NCBI GenBank assembly: GCA_913063325.1
Contig: CAJXYE010000006.1
Coordinates: 1-64,000, forward strand
Reading direction: 5' to 3'
DNA: 64,000 nt
Source of the DNA: an uncultured Colwellia sp.
GTDB taxonomy: Bacteria > Pseudomonadota > Gammaproteobacteria > Enterobacterales > Alteromonadaceae
Every line of letters starts with the position of its first letter. Position 1 is the stretch's first letter. Shown here piece after piece: positions 42,910 to 52,748 of this stretch. The notes under the pieces are model-generated. The model was given only the letters and a program-made list of their open reading frames with translations. It was not told the DNA's origin and did not search any database. Position numbers and translations under genes: made by a program.

Positions 42910-43123
42910 TTATTTCTTATATGAAGCTACAACATTATCTATACGTGCATTGGCGGCATTAGCTGCTTGGACATCCGCTGCTGTAGATTCTTGCTGTGTT
43001 TTTAAATCAGCAACTTGAGTTGATAAGGCATCAACCATATTGGTTAATGAGGTAATATTTGCATCAACTTTATCAGTATTAGCACAGGCCGTGAGTGCTA
43101 GTAGCTGTTATTTTTTTTAACAT
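42910..43123 (-). pseudogene. lpp: Lpp-like murein lipoprotein gene, frameshifted in the signal peptide
   Basis: On the minus strand, ATG at 43123-43121 begins MLKKIT but the frame ends after 14 codons. The next frame reads LLALTACANTDKVDANITSL, a lipobox with Cys, and goes on through heptad-type sequence (MVDALSTQVADLKTQQEST) to a C-terminal SYKK, the lysine type that is joined to peptidoglycan. The total of 214 bp is one more than a multiple of three, and no start codon is available in the second frame before the lipobox. It therefore looks inactivated by a one-base insertion (or two-base loss). This is the only content of the 371-bp gap 42866-43236. Confidence 0.8.
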
Positions 43124-43236
43124 AGTGATATCCCAAGTGACGTTATTATTTCCCTTAATTCTTTGCAAGTATGGCACAAAAAATAACCTTAGAAAGTGTT
43201 GCACTTTGATAATAGCTGTTGATATCACGGTTAATT

Positions 43237-43566
43237 TTAAGCGTTTGGGCCAGATGTTATGTGAGCAATTAAGTCATCCATAAGCTTCTTTTTAATTTCT
43301 AGTTGATCATCAGCGTGTAATTGATATTTCTCTGCAAGAATCTGATAGTCACTTGGCGCTAAGCTAACAGTTAAACGAGGACGTTTAGGTCTTTTGTTAA
43401 TGGGTAGACCTAAAATATCACGGATTTGATCTGACGGACTTAAACCTGCGTCGAGTGCTTGTTTTCGAATAGAGAGCTGGATTTTTTCGTCCATATCAAA
43501 AGCAACTTGCACAGCTTTAATCGCTTTAACTGAGGATTGCCATTTCTCGGGGATTTTTCTCGCCAT
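43237..43566 (-). CDS. Small ribbon-helix-helix-like protein, possible regulator
   Basis: This 109-residue basic protein may be DNA-binding: a short strand-like VQVAFDMDEKIQLSIRKQAL and LSPSDQIRDILGL resemble ribbon-helix-helix folds, and a second RPRLTVSLAPSDYQILAEKY is similar. It is the last gene of the yjfI-yjfJ-yjfK transcription direction, 51 bp after yjfK. It could bind the palindromes in this locus, but that is speculation. Confidence 0.5.
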   Translation of the reverse strand: MARKIPEKWQSSVKAIKAVQVAFDMDEKIQLSIRKQALDAGLSPSDQIRDILGLPINKRPKRPRLTVSLAPSDYQILAEKYQLHADDQLEIKKKLMDDLIAHITSGPNA

Positions 43567-43617
43567 AATCGTTTCCGAATTTGTAGTTTGAGTATTCGTT
43601 GTGGAATACTTTTGTGA

Positions 43618-44259
43618 TTAACTTGCGGGGTACATATCAGTGATATCACTAAGTGGTCTAAATAAAGTTAAGCAGACTTCAGTATCGCCATCTTGCCAAA
43701 CCTCTACATCAACACCTTTACTCTGATCTTCATTATACAGGCTATATAATTCAAATTGCTCACCGCTATCTTTGCCTTCATAGGCCGATAGTTTTTCACT
43801 GCGGTGATCTTTACGATGAAAAAAGCCAACTTTAGCGAAGACACTTTGCTGATATTGCTCGCTACTCCACATACTGGTGATTGCAGAGTCAGATTTCTTA
43901 TCTAGAAAGGCTTCTCCTGGCTCATCAAATATCTCGGAAAAACGGTCTAAATCAAATAAAGCCTCAACATCTTCATGTTGAATTTTTAATGATAATTTAA
44001 GCTCAGTGACATCATCAACTTCCAATGATAAAAATATTTCTAGGGCGTTAGTACCAAGCAGAGCCCATTCAGTCTGTACCTTATGTTCAAACTCATAACT
44101 ATTAACAGCTTTAACTTGAAAATCTTGGCCACGTAATGACTCAGGTAAAGCAAAACTATCGGTTAAAACAATAATATCGCCTACCAATAATTGATCAACG
44201 TGCGTTAATTTTCTTGGCTCGTTAGATGACTTATTAAATATCTTTTTAAAAAAACTCAT
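43618..44259 (-). CDS. yjfK: YjfK-like DUF2491 protein
   Basis: This 213-residue protein starts MSFFKKIFNKSS and shows features I associate with the DUF2491/YjfK family (VDQLLVGDIIVLTDSF and a central EVDDVTELKLSLKI). It is soluble by appearance and its function is unknown. In other genomes it occurs with a PspA-like protein and DUF350, as here. Gap to yjfJ is 136 bp. Confidence 0.8.
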   Translation of the reverse strand: MSFFKKIFNKSSNEPRKLTHVDQLLVGDIIVLTDSFALPESLRGQDFQVKAVNSYEFEHKVQTEWALLGTNALEIFLSLEVDDVTELKLSLKIQHEDVEALFDLDRFSEIFDEPGEAFLDKKSDSAITSMWSSEQYQQSVFAKVGFFHRKDHRSEKLSAYEGKDSGEQFELYSLYNEDQSKGVDVEVWQDGDTEVCLTLFRPLSDITDMYPAS

Positions 44260-44395
44260 AGAATTACCTAAAGTAGAACAGGCACTGGCTTAATACAACT
44301 TTACTAAGTTGATATAAAACAGTGCCTGAGAGCTTATTTTACTCTGTAAGCGTTCAGTTATAAGCCCGTTAATTAGTTAGCAGGCTTAACTCTGA

Positions 44396-45085
44396 TTACT
44401 TTTGTTTTGCTTTTAAACGTTCTAATACTGAATTAGCACTATTGTCTTGCGAACCAATACCAGCAGCTTTTAATTGTGCTTGCAATGAAGAGTCTGAGTC
44501 TTCAGAGTCAAGTAATTCAGCTGCCTTCATTTTGTCATCAAACTTTTGTTGCTTAGCTTTAATGCGCTCTAATGAATCTTTTGCACTTAATAACTTAGAA
44601 TTGCTTGATGAAAAATTGTCGGTAATGGCTGACGTGGCTTTTTGCACACTTTCAGTAGTTTTAACCATAGAAAGTTGACGTTTATGCTCAGCAACTTGAC
44701 GTTCACTTTTCTTAACTAATTCTTTTAAACGATCAGCGCTACCACTGAAACTATCGTGGGCTTGTTGCTGGTCAGCTAAAGTACCTTCTAAAGTAGCAAT
44801 TTTTTCGGCTACAGCTAGTGCCAATGTTTCGTCACCTTTTTCAAGGGCTTGTGCTACATAACCTTCATGTTCTGTAATTTCACGCGTTAAACGATCAATC
44901 TCACGTTTTGCAGCCATTTGCTCTGCCATAACGCCAGTTAAATCACGTTTTGCTTTGGTCAGATGATTTCCTGCATCACGAATTTCTTGTTCAAAAATAC
45001 GGGTAGCATTCGCATCAATTATTGCTTCACCAGCTTCTGATGCACCGCCGCGAATTGCGGTCATAATTTTTTTAAATATACTCAT
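44396..45085 (-). CDS. yjfJ: PspA/IM30 family protein (YjfJ-like)
   Basis: This 229-residue, mostly helical coiled-coil protein begins MSIFKKIMTAIRGGASEAGE, an amphipathic membrane-binding helix like that of PspA. PspA-type proteins protect the inner membrane under stress. I chose MSIFKK because GGAG lies seven bases upstream; the frame open further upstream is not used. It lies between yjfI and yjfK. It differs from true PspA in context: no pspBC or pspF is present. Confidence 0.87.
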   Translation of the reverse strand: MSIFKKIMTAIRGGASEAGEAIIDANATRIFEQEIRDAGNHLTKAKRDLTGVMAEQMAAKREIDRLTREITEHEGYVAQALEKGDETLALAVAEKIATLEGTLADQQQAHDSFSGSADRLKELVKKSERQVAEHKRQLSMVKTTESVQKATSAITDNFSSSNSKLLSAKDSLERIKAKQQKFDDKMKAAELLDSEDSDSSLQAQLKAAGIGSQDNSANSVLERLKAKQK

Positions 45086-45153
45086 TATTAACTCCACTTA
45101 TTCCTAATTAGGATTATTAAATGACGCTTAATTAGTTGTTAAACTTAAATCAA

Positions 45154-45567
45154 CTAAAGTAAGTAATCACTCATATCATCAATCACTTCGATGGCATTGT
45201 TGCTTAATACTGCTAATTCATGTTCGACATCATCAAAACTTGAACTAATAGATAAAGCGCCAAAGACTACATATTTATCACCAATTTTTGAGAATGATGA
45301 CAAGGGCATAGGGATATTCATTTCTAACATGCTTTCATGCATCATGTTAATACATTCAGGCTTAACTTCTTCTGTTCCCCATAAGTAGCTGATGCAAATA
45401 ATTTGATCTTCTGTTACCGAAACAAATACCGGTAACTCTTCACGGCCCAAAATACTAATTTGCAGGACGTCAACTTCGCCAGATATGGGTTGGCAATCAA
45501 AGCTCATTCCTGTGTCTGAATTATCTGCCAAGCTATTTAAGTGATCGGCTATAGTATGAATATTCAT
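45154..45567 (-). CDS. yjfI: YjfI-like DUF2170 protein
   Basis: This 137-residue acidic soluble protein (MNIHTIADHLNSLAD, then LPVFVSVTEDQIICISYLW, PMPLSSFSKIGDKYVVFGAL) belongs to DUF2170, whose function is not known. It heads the yjfI-J-K-RHH direction and has a strong GGAAGGA ribosome site. Two palindromes and a promoter lie upstream. Confidence 0.8.
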   Translation of the reverse strand: MNIHTIADHLNSLADNSDTGMSFDCQPISGEVDVLQISILGREELPVFVSVTEDQIICISYLWGTEEVKPECINMMHESMLEMNIPMPLSSFSKIGDKYVVFGALSISSSFDDVEHELAVLSNNAIEVIDDMSDYLL

Positions 45568-45606
45568 GTATTTCCTATCCTTCCTTTCTTTAGTGGTAAA
45601 GTAGAT

Positions 45607-45619
45607 GACATATTATGTC
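45607..45619. promoter_or_regulatory. Palindromic operator, site 1 of the yjfI promoter
   Basis: GACATATTATGTC is a perfect palindrome with 6-bp half sites around one base. It lies 40 bp upstream of yjfI and just downstream of the predicted start point, a typical repressor site. The same 13 bases occur at 45643 and 49684. Confidence 0.6.
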
Positions 45620-45629
45620 GTCTGAGTTA

Positions 45630-45660
45630 AATTTAGCAGCTTGACATATTATGTCAAGCT
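45630..45660 (-). promoter_or_regulatory. yjfI promoter with overlapping palindromic operator, site 2
   Basis: The palindrome has 11-bp half sites (AGCTTGACATA at 45638-45648) around one T, ending at 45660, and contains GACATATTATGTC at 45643-45655. On the minus strand its TTGACA (45657-45652) makes a good -35, with TAAATT (45635-45630) as -10 after 16 bp. A protein bound here would block RNA polymerase. Centre spacing to site 1 is 36 bp. Confidence 0.55.
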
Positions 45661-45694
45661 GTTTTTATAAACTAATTGTACAATTTTAAAAAAT

Positions 45695-45750
45695 AGTGCT
45701 TATTCCATTACTGAGTAAGTGCTTATTCCATTACTGAGTAAGTGCTTATT
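45695..45750 (+). repeat. 23-bp tandem repeat, 2.4 copies
   Basis: The unit AGTGCTTATTCCATTACTG plus AGTA starts at 45695, again at 45718, and partly at 45741. It lies between the end of the aminopropyltransferase-like gene and the yjfI promoter. Its function is unknown; it could vary in length between strains. Confidence 0.7.
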
Positions 45751-45793
45751 TACTCCTATTTACACAAGGGCTATTAACATTTAATTCAAGTAC

Positions 45794-47545
45794 TTAATGT
45801 AAGTCTTGCTGATCTTGCCAAGCTTTTTGATGTAATTGATAAATGGTATGGCTGCCTAATATATTAATGCCAATACTCTCTTTGTTTTGATAAAAATCAT
45901 TAGGGAAAATAAAAGCAGCCTTTAATATAGCTAAATTTAACCATTGATGCGCTATTGGAAGCTTAGTTAGTTTGTTTAATCTTGTTAATGGGCTAGCGCC
46001 GCTCTTAGAAGCAATTGTCCATCCCCATTCGCCAAAACTTGGCACATTATCGTGGTATTGCTGCACATGTGGAAAGTTAGCTGCTGCTAAGGTATTGCCT
46101 ATCGCAATAAATGAGTCTTTCGCGTGATAAGGACTTGTTGATTGAATAGCGATTAAACCATCGCCAGACAGTAACAAATTAAGTCGAGCGTAAAAGTTGA
46201 CTGAATAGAGCTTATTAAGATCAGGGTGGCTTGGATCGGGAAGATCCACAATAATAGCATCGAAAACTTGGCGTTCTTTTAATAATTGATTAATAGCAAT
46301 AAAAGCATCGGCGGCAACAATAGTGACACGTTCGTCCTGCAAACTTTGCTTATTGAGATGTAGAATTTGACGCGCTAAACGCGGGTTTACTAAGTTTTTT
46401 GGTTGCTTAAATATATCTATCAATTCACCATCTAAATCGATTAAGGTCACGTTTTTAGGCTCGTACCTTAAAACATCCCGTAAGGCTAAGCCGTCACCAC
46501 CGCCAATAATTAAAATATTGTCATGCCTTGCTGAGCCAGTCATAACAGGGGCTACCAGGTAATCATGATAAATATGTTCATCAATGGATGAAAATTGTAA
46601 TCGACCGTTCAAGTAGAAATTGATTATATTATCTTGCTCAAGTCCCATATGACGCTCAGTAAATGTTAATTGTTGATAACGGGTTTTATCGGTGTGAACA
46701 ACTTTATCAAGATAGAGAAGGCTATTCATTTGATTAAGCCACTGATTTCCATAGTTAAACATTAAAACAATGATGAGGGCTAAAACACAATGTAAAGCGA
46801 CAAAGGTTTTACGCCAGGTAAGTTGCTTCCAGTACCGTAAAATAAAAAAAGCACCGGCAATAAGGTTTAAACTGGCAGTGAGTGCTGCGGCTTTACTGAT
46901 ATCGATACTTAACAAAAAAACAACCCAAATTGCCGCACCAATACCTGCGCCAACATAATCGGCACCATAGATGGTGCCCAAATTATTTTCCAGGTGTTGC
47001 TGGTGAATATGTTCCCTAATGCGAGCAATTAAAGGGATCTCCATACCAATAAAGAAGCCTAAAACAACGCCGAAAAAGTAAGGGCTATTAAATGCGAGCC
47101 AGCTTAATTGCTGAAATAGTCCACCTGTGGGTTTCATATCGGGTGGAAGGGAGAGCATATCAGCTATTAGTTGTGGAAATATTTGCGTTATAGCGATTAA
47201 GCCGCCAATAATTAAAATGGCACAACTGCCAATCAAGGCAATAATAAGCTCAAGCCAAACAAAGCCATTAAAAGCACAACGAACATTTCTGGCAGCAAAA
47301 GCACCCAAACCCATCGAAACTATCATTAAACCGATCATGGTGTAGATGGTACTTTCCATAACCCCTAAAACCCGACCGGCATAATGAGATAATAAATACT
47401 CATAAATGAGACCACAGCCAGCAAGTACAGCCATAGTTAATATGAGTAAAATATCATCAAGTAGGTGAGGCTGTCCTTTAGGTAAAGAGTCTTGAGGTAA
47501 AGGCTTTTGAAGCAAAGGGTCTTGAGATAAAGTGTTTTGTGGCAT
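45794..47545 (-). CDS. Membrane-bound spermidine-synthase-like protein
   Basis: This 583-residue protein has an N-terminal membrane part with about seven hydrophobic segments (residues 25-270) and a C-terminal spermidine/spermine-synthase-like Rossmann domain with ILIIGGGDGLALRDVL, TLIDLDGELIDIFK and DAIIVDLPDPSHPDLNKLYS. Related proteins are aminopropyltransferases. It may add an aminopropyl group to an unknown acceptor at the membrane. The N-terminal 20 residues are Gln/Pro-rich with short repeats (QDPLLQKPLPQDSLPK). It follows the DUF350 gene on the same strand. Confidence 0.82.
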   Translation of the reverse strand: MPQNTLSQDPLLQKPLPQDSLPKGQPHLLDDILLILTMAVLAGCGLIYEYLLSHYAGRVLGVMESTIYTMIGLMIVSMGLGAFAARNVRCAFNGFVWLELIIALIGSCAILIIGGLIAITQIFPQLIADMLSLPPDMKPTGGLFQQLSWLAFNSPYFFGVVLGFFIGMEIPLIARIREHIHQQHLENNLGTIYGADYVGAGIGAAIWVVFLLSIDISKAAALTASLNLIAGAFFILRYWKQLTWRKTFVALHCVLALIIVLMFNYGNQWLNQMNSLLYLDKVVHTDKTRYQQLTFTERHMGLEQDNIINFYLNGRLQFSSIDEHIYHDYLVAPVMTGSARHDNILIIGGGDGLALRDVLRYEPKNVTLIDLDGELIDIFKQPKNLVNPRLARQILHLNKQSLQDERVTIVAADAFIAINQLLKERQVFDAIIVDLPDPSHPDLNKLYSVNFYARLNLLLSGDGLIAIQSTSPYHAKDSFIAIGNTLAAANFPHVQQYHDNVPSFGEWGWTIASKSGASPLTRLNKLTKLPIAHQWLNLAILKAAFIFPNDFYQNKESIGINILGSHTIYQLHQKAWQDQQDLH

Positions 47546-47665
47546 AGTGGCTAGTATTAGATACTTAGTGATTCTTGAGGAAAGGGTTTAATTAACGTGT
47601 GATGTGCGTTTTGTTAATAGTGACTGCCTGCGTGAAAAACACAGGCAGTAAATTTTAGTGACGAG

Positions 47666-48568
47666 TTATGCCATTAAGGCTGTCAATATTAATGCGATAG
47701 CAATACTGGTTGCCATCTCAATACTGGCAACACCAATGTTATGCTGTTGATCTACTTCTTCAACTAAGTTAATTCCCCAAAGTACGATACGTTTAGCTAC
47801 AGCAGTAAGTAGAGCAACAAGTAAGGTCATTACGATACCAAAAATTAACCAGCCTAATAAGTTAACGACTAATGTCTCAGGGCTATACGTTAGGAAGTGA
47901 CTGGCGGCAGTAACCGCTAAAGCTGTGCTGATCACTTGGCCGCTATAACGAATAGCTAAAGCAAGTTGACCATTACTTAAGGCTTCTTGTAAGCAGTCTT
48001 CTTGGTTATTTTTAGCATATTGCTGTTCACGAAGTCGAGTAACAATAACTAACATGGTTTGAGCAACAATAAAGCCACTGGTGATCGCGATAAAGGTACT
48101 CAAATCTAGTCCGTCTACCCAAAGTAAGACAGCACGAATGATTATCGCTGTTGCAATAGCACCTGCAGCATCAATAATGCCAATAGTAAGGTTTTGTTCA
48201 ATGATAAGTGCATTTTTATCTATGTGTTGCAGAGCAACTTTATCATGGATAATACGACCTACTTTAATCAGTATCAAACCATAACCGCCGTATGCCAACA
48301 TACCAATAGCTTCCATGGCATAGCTACTTGCTGCTTCGCCGGTAATGGCACCGGTAAGTACAATGCCTAGCGCGAATACGCTACCGGCAACACTGATACC
48401 AAAAGCAAAATTATCTTCTTTGGCGAGTTCCTCGGTACTATTTACCTTGGCAGTAATGCCTGAAAGGAAGCGCATAGCCCCTAATAACAATATGGCTATA
48501 GATATATCAATGGCCAAATAAACCAGTAAGTCTTGATTAACACCTGCGAGTGCGATGAATGAGTTCAT
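47666..48568 (-). CDS. yjfL: DUF350 membrane protein (YjfL-like)
   Basis: This 300-residue integral membrane protein has about eight hydrophobic segments and two DUF350-type repeats (first with NFAFGISVAGSVFALGIVL, a second half with LSNGQLALAIRYSGQVIST). Function is unknown. It is found with PspA-like, DUF2491 and aminopropyltransferase genes, which suggests a membrane-stress role. It lies 42 bp after the lipoprotein gene. Confidence 0.85.
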   Translation of the reverse strand: MNSFIALAGVNQDLLVYLAIDISIAILLLGAMRFLSGITAKVNSTEELAKEDNFAFGISVAGSVFALGIVLTGAITGEAASSYAMEAIGMLAYGGYGLILIKVGRIIHDKVALQHIDKNALIIEQNLTIGIIDAAGAIATAIIIRAVLLWVDGLDLSTFIAITSGFIVAQTMLVIVTRLREQQYAKNNQEDCLQEALSNGQLALAIRYSGQVISTALAVTAASHFLTYSPETLVVNLLGWLIFGIVMTLLVALLTAVAKRIVLWGINLVEEVDQQHNIGVASIEMATSIAIALILTALMA

Positions 48569-48610
48569 AATTTTACTGTTCCTATTCTTTTTTTATAGTC
48601 GACTTATTCA

Positions 48611-49600
48611 TTACTTCCCGCGTCTAAAGCCGCGTGATGTATTGGTTTTTGAGTTTCTAAAACTAGAGTTCTTACTCTTAGGTTTACTGGCATAACTACT
48701 TTTTTTAACACTATTGGTGCGAAAGCGATTAGCACTCGTTTGAGCTGTTCTGCTCTGGCTAGATAAACTTGAAGAGCCTGCTCGGTTTTTACTATAAGGA
48801 CTGGTAAACTTTTGCCCGCGATTACTAAAAGATTTTTTAGTACGAGTATCAAGCGAAGTTTGTTTTTTTAATTGGCCAGGCGAGCTGTAGCGTGTTCTAC
48901 CGTAGTCATTGTAATAACTATAATTCCGATTTCTTCCCCAGTCGCTGTAAGAAGTACGTCGACCAAACATATCACCCATCATTGAGTACATGCCATACCA
49001 GGCCCAAAAAGACATGCCATTACTACCTGTTTGCCAGTTACCGTAACCGGGGTTACCAATTAACTGCTCACCAGTACCAAAATCTTGAGCATTGTTGGCT
49101 TGTTGGCTTTGTGATTTTGATAACGAATTAATGCGAGGTAGCTGTCCATCTGACATATCAGCTAATACATTAAGTGGATCACTTAATGCGTCAGAATAAA
49201 GTACAGGGTCTGCGGCTTGGTAAATATTTAGTAATTCATTATAACGCGCCTGAGAAGACTCAAACATTTGTGGCTGAGTTTTGACGGTATTAATTCTATC
49301 TAATAGCGCCTTATACATAGGACCATTAGTCGAAGCGTCTTTGCGAAACTCATTAATTAGCGGCGTTAAGCTGGCTTTATTAACTGCTACTTTATCTGCA
49401 TATTGGTTAATTAAGCTGGCATTACGAATTTGGCCATTATTTAAAGCATCACCTAACTGTGTAACTCTTTGCTCAGTAATAGGTAATTGCTGTTCGATTT
49501 GCTCTTTTACAGGATCGCCACAGCCAACTAAACTAAGCGTAGTAATTATGATCAAGAGTAATAAAAAAGGTGTTTTTAGTAAGCGCATTTCTGCCATCAT
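48611..49600 (-). CDS. Lipoprotein with basic Ser/Arg/Lys-rich tail, unknown
   Basis: This 329-residue protein has a lipoprotein signal (LLLLIIITTLSLVGCGD). The middle is helical. From about residue 195 the sequence turns Trp/Tyr/Gly-rich (WAWYGMYSMMGDMFGRR) and the last 100 residues are dense in Ser, Arg, Lys and Asn (for example SSRTAQTSANRFRTNS). I do not recognise a family. GAGGAG abuts the first of three nearby ATGs, so translation may start at the second or third codon instead. It probably heads an operon with DUF350 and the aminopropyltransferase-like gene. Confidence 0.7.
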   Translation of the reverse strand: MMAEMRLLKTPFLLLLIIITTLSLVGCGDPVKEQIEQQLPITEQRVTQLGDALNNGQIRNASLINQYADKVAVNKASLTPLINEFRKDASTNGPMYKALLDRINTVKTQPQMFESSQARYNELLNIYQAADPVLYSDALSDPLNVLADMSDGQLPRINSLSKSQSQQANNAQDFGTGEQLIGNPGYGNWQTGSNGMSFWAWYGMYSMMGDMFGRRTSYSDWGRNRNYSYYNDYGRTRYSSPGQLKKQTSLDTRTKKSFSNRGQKFTSPYSKNRAGSSSLSSQSRTAQTSANRFRTNSVKKSSYASKPKSKNSSFRNSKTNTSRGFRRGK

Positions 49601-49683
49601 CTCCTCAAAAATGCTATGTTATCGAAATAAATAAATTAATATTAGCGACTAAGCATAGACAATTGTCAATTAATACCATTAAC

Positions 49684-49696
49684 GACATATTATGTC
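49684..49696. promoter_or_regulatory. Palindromic operator, site 3
   Basis: GACATATTATGTC is identical to the two sites upstream of yjfI. It lies 84 bp upstream of the lipoprotein start. A minus-strand TTGACA at 49669-49664 and TAATAT at 49644-49639 are a possible promoter, with the site just upstream. A further palindrome GACAATTGTC (49658-49667) overlaps that -35. Confidence 0.55.
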
Positions 49697-49889: not shown

Positions 49890-52748
49890 GTGACATTATC
49901 TCTTTCTCCTCTCCTATTGCAGCAACAAAAAACTAGCTGGCAACATTTTATTGATCAACATGCTCAGGCTTGTAATGACTTGTCTCAAGATCAAATTGAA
50001 TTATTTAAACAAGCGATAACGCTGAGTGATTTCATCTTAAAAAGTGCTTTGCAAGCACCTGAACTCGTTATAGAGCTTTTTAGACTACCTAGCAAAGAAG
50101 TGTTACCCGATTATAGAAATCTTCTGAGTGAGCAATTATCCCTCTGTACTAATGAAGCTCAGCTACACCGTACGCTTCGACGTTTTCGATTACAACAAAT
50201 GGTGAAGATAGCAATTGATGACTTATTATTAGATATCAGTCTCGATGTTTCATTGGCGAGGTTATCATCATTAGCCGATGAGCTTATTTTATCTAGTTTA
50301 CAATGGTTAACTGATTTTTGTCAGAAAAAATGGGGTACTCCTACCAATGAGCAAGGTGAAAATCAGGTTCTATTGGTTTATGGCATGGGGAAGCTCGGCG
50401 GTAAAGAGTTAAACTTCTCCTCTGATATAGATTTAATTTTTACTTATCCCGAAAGTGGTGAAACTCATGGCTGTCGCCGTAGTATTGATAACCAGCAATT
50501 TTTCACACGCTTAGCACAAAAACTCATTGCTTCACTACACCAAGTCACTTGTGATGGTTTTGTCTATCGTGTCGATATGCGATTACGTCCTTTTGGTGAC
50601 AGTGGGCCACTTGTTTTAACGTTTAATGCCATGGAAGATTATTACCAAGAACAAGGGCGTGATTGGGAGCGTTATGCCATGTTGAAAGCGAGAGTTATTG
50701 GTGAATCTAAATACCATGAACAGCTATCAAGTATGCTCAGACCTTTTGTTTATCGTCGTTACATTGATTTTAGTGTTATTGATAGCTTACGACGTATGAA
50801 AATGATGATTGCGCAAGAGGTTCGCCGCAAGCAATTAATCAATAACATCAAACTTGGCGCAGGCGGTATTCGCGAAATTGAATTTATTGTCCAAGTGTTC
50901 CAGCTCATTCGAGGTGGTCGGGTAAAAGAGCTTCAGCAACGCAGTTTATTAACTGTTTTGCCAAAACTGGTTGAGTCTGGTGAAATTAATGAAGCGAATA
51001 AACAAGTGTTAGAAAACGCGTATCGTTTTTTACGTCGAGTAGAAAATATAATTCAGGCATTAGCCGATAAGCAAACGCAAACATTACCTGATAGTGAACT
51101 TGACCAACAGCGGGTAATAGCTGTGCTAGGCATTGAAACCTGGCCTGAATTTTTAGCTATATTAGCCGAACATATGAATAACGTTCACCAAGAGTTTGAT
51201 TTACTCATTGGGCTCGATAGCCCTAATCATCAAGCGGCAGATGAACATTGGGTTACGCTTTGGCATAATCGTTGGAGTGATGAAGAATCTATCGCATGGT
51301 TAGACCAAGAAGCCCTTGCTTGGCAAAGTAGCAAGGTGTGGCAGATACTGCATGATTTTCGAGAGGACACGGGGAAACGTAGTTTAGGTAACAGAGGCCG
51401 CCAGGTATTAGATAAATTAATTCCATTACTTTTATGCCGATTACAAAAGAATGAAATGGCTGAACAGGTTCTAGCAAGAGTATTGCAAGTCTTTAGTAAA
51501 ATAGTGACACGTACCGCTTACTTAGAGCTACTTTTTGAAAATGAAGGGGCGTTAAAGCAACTTATTCATTTATGCCAAGCCAGTAGTTGGGTGACCGACT
51601 ATATTGCTAAATATCCAATTTTACTTGATGAGCTTATTGATCCCAAGTTACTGCATAACCCGCCACAACTTTCGTCTTATGCGCTAGAGTTGCGTGAACG
51701 TATGTTAAGGATCCCAGAGGAAGATCTTGAAGCACAAATGGAAGCACTTCGTCAGTTTAAACAATCTCAACAATTACGCATTGCTGCAGCTGAAATTGCC
51801 GATGTCTTACCGGTAGCAAAAATAAGTGAACATTTAACCTCTTTAGCAGAGGCCATTTTATCAGAAGTGATAAACCTTGCTTGGCAGCAAGTTAGTGATC
51901 GCTTTGGTGTGCCTACAATCTGTTTAGGTCACGGCAAGGAAAAAGGCTTTGGTGTTATTGCTTACGGTAAAACGGGCGGTGTTGAACTTGGATACAGCTC
52001 TGATTTAGATTTAGTTTTTGTTCATCAAAGTGAGTCCGATGAAGTGACAACAGGTAAGGCTGACGGTAGTAAGGTAATAGCTGCAAGTCAGTTTTATATG
52101 AAATTAGCTCAACGTATTATGCACATTTTTAACACCCGTATGAATAGTGGAATTTTATATGAGTTAGATATGCGCTTGAGACCATCAGGTAACTCAGGTT
52201 TGTTAGTGGTACATTTAAATACCTTTGCCAATTATCAGCATGAAGATGCATGGACTTGGGAGCATCAAGCGCTAGTAAGAGCTCGAATGATTTTTGGTAA
52301 TGTAGAGCTTCACAAAGAGTTTGTTACTATTCGACAAGACGTTTTATCAAGGCCTAGAGAATTCTTAACACTAAAAAGTGACATTGTTAGCATGCGGGAA
52401 AAAATGCGTAGTCACCTTGATAAATCAGACGAATCTCATTTAGATATTAAGCAAGGTAAAGGCGGATTAGTTGATATTGAGTTTCTGGCTCAGTTTTTAG
52501 TACTTGCTCATGCAAAAGAGTACAGTGAATTGATGAATTATTGTGATAATTTAGGTATTTTTAAAAGCTTACTTAAGTTGAATTTATTAGAGAAGGCAGA
52601 GCAGCAGCAATTGAGCCATATGTATCAAAAGCTAAGAGCGTTAGGTCATCAAGCTACAATGCAAAATGCAGGACAATTAATCAATAAATCAACCATTACC
52701 GGGCAAGTTGCGATTAGTGAAATTTGGCAAAAACGGCTAGTTGATTAG
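49890..52748 (+). CDS. glnE: Glutamine synthetase adenylyltransferase/deadenylyltransferase
   Basis: This 952-residue bifunctional enzyme attaches and removes AMP on glutamine synthetase in response to nitrogen status. Each half has a nucleotidyltransferase core: VYGMGKLGGKELNFSSDIDLIFTYP with DMRLRPFGDSGPLV, and VIAYGKTGGVELGYSSDLDLVFVH with DMRLRPSGNSGLLV. I chose the GTG start, which has AAGGAA four bases upstream. Length matches the family. Confidence 0.96.
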   Translation: MTLSLSPLLLQQQKTSWQHFIDQHAQACNDLSQDQIELFKQAITLSDFILKSALQAPELVIELFRLPSKEVLPDYRNLLSEQLSLCTNEAQLHRTLRRFRLQQMVKIAIDDLLLDISLDVSLARLSSLADELILSSLQWLTDFCQKKWGTPTNEQGENQVLLVYGMGKLGGKELNFSSDIDLIFTYPESGETHGCRRSIDNQQFFTRLAQKLIASLHQVTCDGFVYRVDMRLRPFGDSGPLVLTFNAMEDYYQEQGRDWERYAMLKARVIGESKYHEQLSSMLRPFVYRRYIDFSVIDSLRRMKMMIAQEVRRKQLINNIKLGAGGIREIEFIVQVFQLIRGGRVKELQQRSLLTVLPKLVESGEINEANKQVLENAYRFLRRVENIIQALADKQTQTLPDSELDQQRVIAVLGIETWPEFLAILAEHMNNVHQEFDLLIGLDSPNHQAADEHWVTLWHNRWSDEESIAWLDQEALAWQSSKVWQILHDFREDTGKRSLGNRGRQVLDKLIPLLLCRLQKNEMAEQVLARVLQVFSKIVTRTAYLELLFENEGALKQLIHLCQASSWVTDYIAKYPILLDELIDPKLLHNPPQLSSYALELRERMLRIPEEDLEAQMEALRQFKQSQQLRIAAAEIADVLPVAKISEHLTSLAEAILSEVINLAWQQVSDRFGVPTICLGHGKEKGFGVIAYGKTGGVELGYSSDLDLVFVHQSESDEVTTGKADGSKVIAASQFYMKLAQRIMHIFNTRMNSGILYELDMRLRPSGNSGLLVVHLNTFANYQHEDAWTWEHQALVRARMIFGNVELHKEFVTIRQDVLSRPREFLTLKSDIVSMREKMRSHLDKSDESHLDIKQGKGGLVDIEFLAQFLVLAHAKEYSELMNYCDNLGIFKSLLKLNLLEKAEQQQLSHMYQKLRALGHQATMQNAGQLINKSTITGQVAISEIWQKRLVD

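Follow-up and report, generated by a model that had tools for sequence, protein, structure and literature searches.

The 64,000-nucleotide stretch of an uncultured Colwellia sp. analysed here (the window) contains two minus-strand gene sets with seven genes in all, lipoprotein-DUF350-aminopropyltransferase and then DUF2170-PspA-DUF4178-type-RHH-like, where RHH stands for ribbon-helix-helix. Exact copies of one palindrome, GACATATTATGTC, precede both sets. Our analysis suggests that this element, GACATA-W-TATGTC, is probably the operator of the RHH-like protein, which is encoded last in the DUF2170-PspA-DUF4178-RHH operon and would repress both its own operon and a regulon of genes for inner-membrane maintenance. 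Computation on the genomes shows the element, how it is placed at promoters, that it occurs together with the RHH gene, and which genes lie behind it.

The palindrome and its promoter geometry

The copies of the palindrome in the window, the promoter that they overlap and the gene of the candidate regulator are as follows.

45643-45655, no strand assigned: operator site 1, an exact GACATATTATGTC copy, overlapping the -35 TTGACA
45607-45619, no strand assigned: operator site 2, an exact GACATATTATGTC copy, starting at about +5 of the inferred DUF2170-set transcript
49684-49696, no strand assigned: operator before the lipoprotein-DUF350-aminopropyltransferase set, an exact GACATATTATGTC copy
45652-45657, minus strand: -35 box TTGACA, overlapped by operator site 1, read in the window
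45630-45635, minus strand: inferred -10 box TAAATT, separated from the -35 box by 16 bp, read in the window, with the same arrangement computed in relatives
43237-43566, minus strand: RHH-like protein of 109 aa and candidate regulator, encoded at the end of the DUF2170-PspA set

Apart from GACATATTATGTC, no perfect 6-1-6 palindrome recurs in the window, where 29 distinct ones make up 31 occurrences. The three exact copies of GACATATTATGTC compare with 0.0034 expected per 64 kb under a first-order Markov model with any centre. The draft genome (4.88 Mb in 126 contigs, 87.6% complete) holds four exact copies versus about 0.17 expected under the first-order model with an A/T centre, and a reversed-pattern control has none. 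The fourth copy lies 97 bp upstream of a band-7/SPFH gene. An earlier note on this DNA had placed the palindrome at 45607, 45643 and 49684 and had seen no further one in the window, which is correct. The note named as a refuting outcome that the palindrome be frequent across the genome without link to these genes; in the genome, each of the four exact copies stands before a PspA-operon, DUF350-operon or band-7 gene. Allowing up to two mismatches gives no usable excess in the genome (106 matches versus 91 for the control), and up to three mismatches give 29 matches in the window versus 22.7 expected. Only exact or lineage-specific forms of the palindrome are therefore informative. A chance origin was rejected on the basis of conservation in relatives, co-occurrence with the RHH gene and the Markov expectation.

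The position of the sites relative to promoters was determined in 39 DUF2170 upstream regions, 15 of them from one genus, using a slightly loosened palindrome pattern and an inferred transcription start. A site is present in 36 regions. TTGACA overlaps the first site in 32 of these 36 promoters, with a -10-like box 15-18 bp further on, and the promoters look sigma-70-like. A second site is present in 33 promoters; in 30 of them its first position falls between +2 and +8 relative to the inferred start (extremes -4 and +8). A site over the -35 box with another just past the start is the geometry of a repressor. At 51 hand-picked other palindrome sites, TTGACA is found in 22, versus about 4.6 expected.

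Conservation, co-occurrence and possible further targets

The best 80 of 289 relatives, mostly Colwelliaceae, gave a set of named loci that together span 1.55 Mb. These contain 234 sites, all of them before DUF2170 or the lipoprotein gene and none elsewhere. The pair lies upstream of DUF2170 in 80/80 loci, with its members 35-39 bp apart, and falls within 300 bp of the gene in 79 (in L226 it lies at 318-354 bp); a palindrome lies upstream of the lipoprotein gene in 74/80. The earlier suggestion of a single regulon is strongly supported across genomes and applies beyond the locus.

Another sample comprised 20 loci of the order, each surrounding an RHH homologue. An exact pair precedes DUF2170 in 13 of them, two have one site there and five have none, and some of these five show altered palindrome forms; the lipoprotein gene is preceded by a site in eight of the 11 loci of this sample where the gene was found. 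A class sample of 369 genomes includes 11 RHH-positive genomes of other families, and in nine of these the stretch read contains a match to DUF2170. Exact palindromes precede DUF2170 in seven of these nine and a CCCATAATATGTC-type variant in the other two. Operator spacing in other families is often only 15-18 bp; this is seen in L329-L331, L335, L337 and L340, where TTGACA lies at or near the junction or the first site. Genus f11/g24 has a form of its own: by coordinates, the variant GACATTWAATGTC stands directly before DUF2170 in 22/22 of its RHH-positive genomes, and it occurs somewhere in 48 of the remaining 273 genomes of the order. In loci of this genus (L059, L061, L195-L206 and L211), the first site reads GACATATAATGNC and the second GACATTWAATGTC. 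The first predicted strand of the RHH protein reads VQI in this genus and VQV in most others.

Presence of the RHH gene tracks presence of the palindrome. In an order sample of 295 genomes, the RHH gene is found in 91 and the exact palindrome in 82. The palindrome occurs in 69 of the 91 RHH-positive genomes versus 13 of the 204 RHH-negative ones (Fisher 3e-34, a p-value that is illustrative only because the genomes are related), with 311 copies in the former and 17 in the latter. The class sample gives 9/13 versus 4/356, and once the window's own family is left out, 7/11 versus 4/356. Among the 22 RHH-positive genomes of the order sample that have no exact copy, 21 belong to genus f11/g24. DUF2170 is present in 126 genomes of this sample, 35 of them RHH-negative; only three of these 35 carry the palindrome, and the presence of DUF2170 or PspA was therefore rejected as the determinant. 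Genome G207 has, beside its intact RHH gene, a second partial match with two internal stops (G207:C79:51098-51208), apparently a remnant.

Further targets were sought in 91 additional loci fetched from 31 genomes and containing 100 palindromes, a chosen rather than exhaustive set of genomes and sites. Of these sites, 48 stand no more than 350 bp before a gene whose family recurs across at least two genera. The families are HtpX (17 sites, six genera, all outside the window's family), NfeD (eight sites, three genera), NhaA (seven sites, five genera), band-7 (six sites, five genera), YqiJ and Tim44-like (two sites in two genera each), and some divergent or unnamed neighbours. The other sites include within-genus targets, namely M16 peptidase and AIM24 with four sites each, as well as PspA genes (L129, L189 and L194), unassigned genes and three sites in RHH-negative genomes. 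Three PspA matches are present in 11 of 12 Colwelliaceae genomes scanned, the third being weak in the window's own genome, and in five of the 12 the palindrome lies, by coordinates, 166-484 bp before the third PspA gene.

The candidate regulator and alternative explanations

The RHH-like protein, whose best named matches are from Colwellia, has no match in Pfam and nothing usable among PDB sequences. In its predicted structure a strand-helix-helix pattern appears twice. Two structure models are good at the local level, with a mean predicted local distance difference test (pLDDT) of 78 and 77, but poor for the fold as a whole, with a predicted template modelling score (pTM) of 0.44 and 0.37; the second run, which used a wider alignment, did not raise the confidence. 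The most probable Foldseek neighbours of the first model are RHH proteins (NikA 0.91, CopG 0.66, FitA 0.63, Rv0298 0.60; E from 0.88). For the second model, helix-turn-helix proteins are listed alongside single-chain Arc, AvtR and F-plasmid relaxosome chains, and every match is weak. We take the protein to be probably a tandem RHH, with two motifs in one chain. The earlier label 'RHH-like' has no Pfam match behind it and draws on the predicted pattern and on weak structural matches.

We infer that this protein binds the palindrome and represses. Bound at the -35 box and again slightly beyond the transcription start, it would shut down its own operon, and it would also control the lipoprotein-DUF350-aminopropyltransferase set. 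Depending on the lineage, its further targets may include band-7/SPFH, NfeD, YqiJ, HtpX, NhaA, AIM24, M16 protease and further PspA genes. The protein shows no obvious sensor domain and would thus have to receive its signal from a partner. The DUF2170 protein and the PspA-like protein adjoin the RHH gene even in the short loci L054 and L060, and we speculate that membrane stress lifts repression via these two products of the operon itself.

Several observations weigh against this proposal. Confidence in the fold is low (the pTM of both models is low, every Foldseek E value is at least 0.88, and helix-turn-helix proteins stand among or above the RHH matches). G250 is RHH-positive without the exact palindrome, and for the RHH-positive G526 and G576 of the class sample the stretch read contains neither a site nor a match to DUF2170. 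Conversely, the 13 palindrome-bearing RHH-negative genomes include two with more than one copy: G083 has two, and G111, which is 88% complete and belongs to a genus of RHH-positive genomes, has four. No cross-genus target lies behind 52 of the 100 fetched-locus sites. Finally, plain occlusion of a -35 box does not account for the sites that lie ahead of sigma-54 promoters.

These last sites would suit a different binder, PspF, the sigma-54 activator, for which the palindrome would be an enhancer site within an ordinary Psp regulon. Six sites in five Colwelliaceae genomes (L115, L120, L122, L126 and L129) lie 70-73 bp before near-perfect sigma-54 promoters that serve small periplasmic-protein genes and, in L129, a PspA gene. 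Such an offset is presumably about where PspF sites lie. Its constancy, not the sigma-54 score, is the striking part: scores of at least 10/12 are reached by 6 of 200 site-and-strand stretches and by 37 of 3000 random ones, a weak excess. Nevertheless, the distribution of the palindrome does not follow PspF. A PspF above the family cut-off is missing from nine of 30 scanned RHH-positive genomes that bear the palindrome, and it is present in 8/8 scanned RHH-negative genomes, only one of which has the palindrome, as a single copy. Moreover, 10 pspF loci contain no palindrome within two mismatches, and the DUF2170 promoters resemble those of sigma-70. On these grounds we rejected PspF as the binder and regard this explanation as very improbable, although cross-talk with PspF at the sigma-54-linked sites is possible. 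Another protein of the NtrC family in place of PspF is an alternative that we still allow for.

That some other transcription factor binds the palindrome, with the RHH gene merely co-occurring, we consider unlikely. The RHH assignment does depend on fold pattern, which leaves room for such a factor, but within the operon no gene other than the RHH gene was seen to look DNA-binding, which holds for short loci such as L060 and L054 too, and the RHH gene tracks the palindrome in both the order and the class samples. Slightly less likely still is that the RHH protein binds as an activator, or in both ways according to position. Sites about 100 bp upstream of sigma-54 promoters and the several HtpX sites that lack TTGACA would fit such a role, whereas a site over the -35 box in most DUF2170 promoters and a second over the start region would hinder polymerase. 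Repression by the RHH-like protein is the reading that we favour.

Gene products and comparison with known systems

The other six genes of the two sets, all on the minus strand, are listed here with the evidence for each.

43618-44259, minus strand: DUF4178-type protein; sub-threshold profile match, same place in relatives
44396-45082, minus strand: PspA/IM30 family protein, YjfJ-like; E 2.6e-38
45154-45567, minus strand: DUF2170 protein, YjfI/BacA-like; E 7.7e-38
45794-47545, minus strand: membrane-fused aminopropyltransferase, spermidine-synthase-like; NF002956 match
47666-48568, minus strand: DUF350 membrane protein, YjfL-like; E 6.1e-32, two stretches
48611-49600, minus strand: lipoprotein-like protein whose gene opens the DUF350 set; no Pfam family matched, same place in relatives

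The product of 43618-44259 had been labelled yjfK. This name was not borne out by a Pfam scan of the operon proteins, which gave no DUF2491/YjfK match and instead a DUF4178 match (E 0.00097, 19.7 bits) below the family cut-off of 25. The aminopropyltransferase scores 606 bits against NCBIfam NF002956 (cut-off 472). Its spermidine synthase domain spans residues 323-517 of 583, and N-terminal membrane segments were judged by eye. Aligned to the solved spermidine synthases 1iy9 and 7xif, it retains GGGDG/GGG(D/E)G, the stretch DE..YH and the region of the VD/D..DP motif, which serve decarboxylated-AdoMet (S-adenosylmethionine) binding and catalysis. The enzyme looks catalytically competent from these motifs, and the aminopropyl reaction proposed in the earlier note is possible.

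Between the two sets, at 45696-45751, there is by eye a 23-bp tandem repeat with two copies and a partial third. At 42915-43125 on the minus strand lies what, by eye, resembles a small gene of murein-lipoprotein type with its frame broken near the start. A gene that we take to be glnE-like adjoins the operon in the window (49890-52748) and in two distant loci (L054, 5881-8748; L060, 1806-4637), so the neighbourhood may be old.

The gene set corresponds to a published group. Ravi et al. 2024 (PMC11237479), in the parts that deal with these operons, describe DUF2170-PspA with a transmembrane (TM)-fused spermidine synthase, DUF350, a lipoprotein of the Ctha_1186 type, DUF4178 and, last in some, RHH (example AAN56744-AAN56747), and they set this spermidine synthase-type operon apart from the ATP-grasp group. 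The window agrees with the group in having DUF2170 and PspA side by side and the membrane-fused spermidine synthase together with DUF350, and it has a DUF4178-type gene (match below the cut-off), a lipoprotein-like gene (no Pfam family) and the RHH-like gene in last place. The earlier remark that an ATP-grasp enzyme usually accompanies these families therefore does not apply to this group; that the enzyme is absent here agrees with our scan of the seven operon proteins, none of which matched the family. What is new is the proposed target of the regulator and the proposed regulon: 'palindrom', 'operator' and 'HtpX' are absent from the main text of PMC11237479. Among open-licence PMC papers we found neither the operator nor the regulon, including for the S. 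oneidensis operon (searched with guessed tags), and the palindrome string only in an unrelated plant paper.

Two related operons share the DUF2170 and PspA-type genes. The P. aeruginosa bac operon has DUF2170 BacA followed by PspA-like BacB, and a bacA mutant accumulates partner proteins; the sections of PMC10948618 on this operon propose a sigma-54 site before bacA and place no spermidine synthase in or around it, whereas the operon region of the window has a spermidine-synthase-like gene. According to the part of PMC12492005 concerned with it, E. coli yjfIJKL is up-regulated in heat-adapted strains and linked to heat tolerance; unlike that operon, the window set has no DUF2491 (YjfK). As for the regulator, TraY, AvtR, single-chain Arc, NikA, CopG and FitA share the strand-helix-helix likeness, apparently present twice here, and are among its weakly matching structural neighbours, with the relaxosome chains taken as TraY by inference only. 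It differs from known RHH families in lacking a sequence match to those in Pfam or PDB.

Taken together, these observations provide one testable operator and a candidate regulator for the poorly characterised DUF2170, DUF4178, DUF350, membrane aminopropyltransferase, SPFH/NfeD and AIM24 proteins, and the proposed control circuit for membrane stress has apparently not been described before. A broader and more tentative view, which we consider somewhat less likely than not, is that gammaproteobacteria have a dedicated inner-membrane stress response apart from PspF, Cpx, Rcs and sigma-E, in which a tandem-RHH repressor would sense damage via DUF2170 and PspA and release membrane proteases, SPFH/NfeD scaffolds, extra PspA copies, a sodium-proton antiporter and the aminopropyltransferase-DUF350 module. 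The classical Psp system (PspF, sigma-54, pspABC) has PspA-based protection of the inner membrane in common with the system described here, but in the latter the promoters are sigma-70-like, the operator is of repressor type and the palindrome is independent of the presence of PspF. This suggests PspF-independent control of PspA-type membrane repair, and apparently a membrane-maintenance system of PspA type under a different, repressor-based control.

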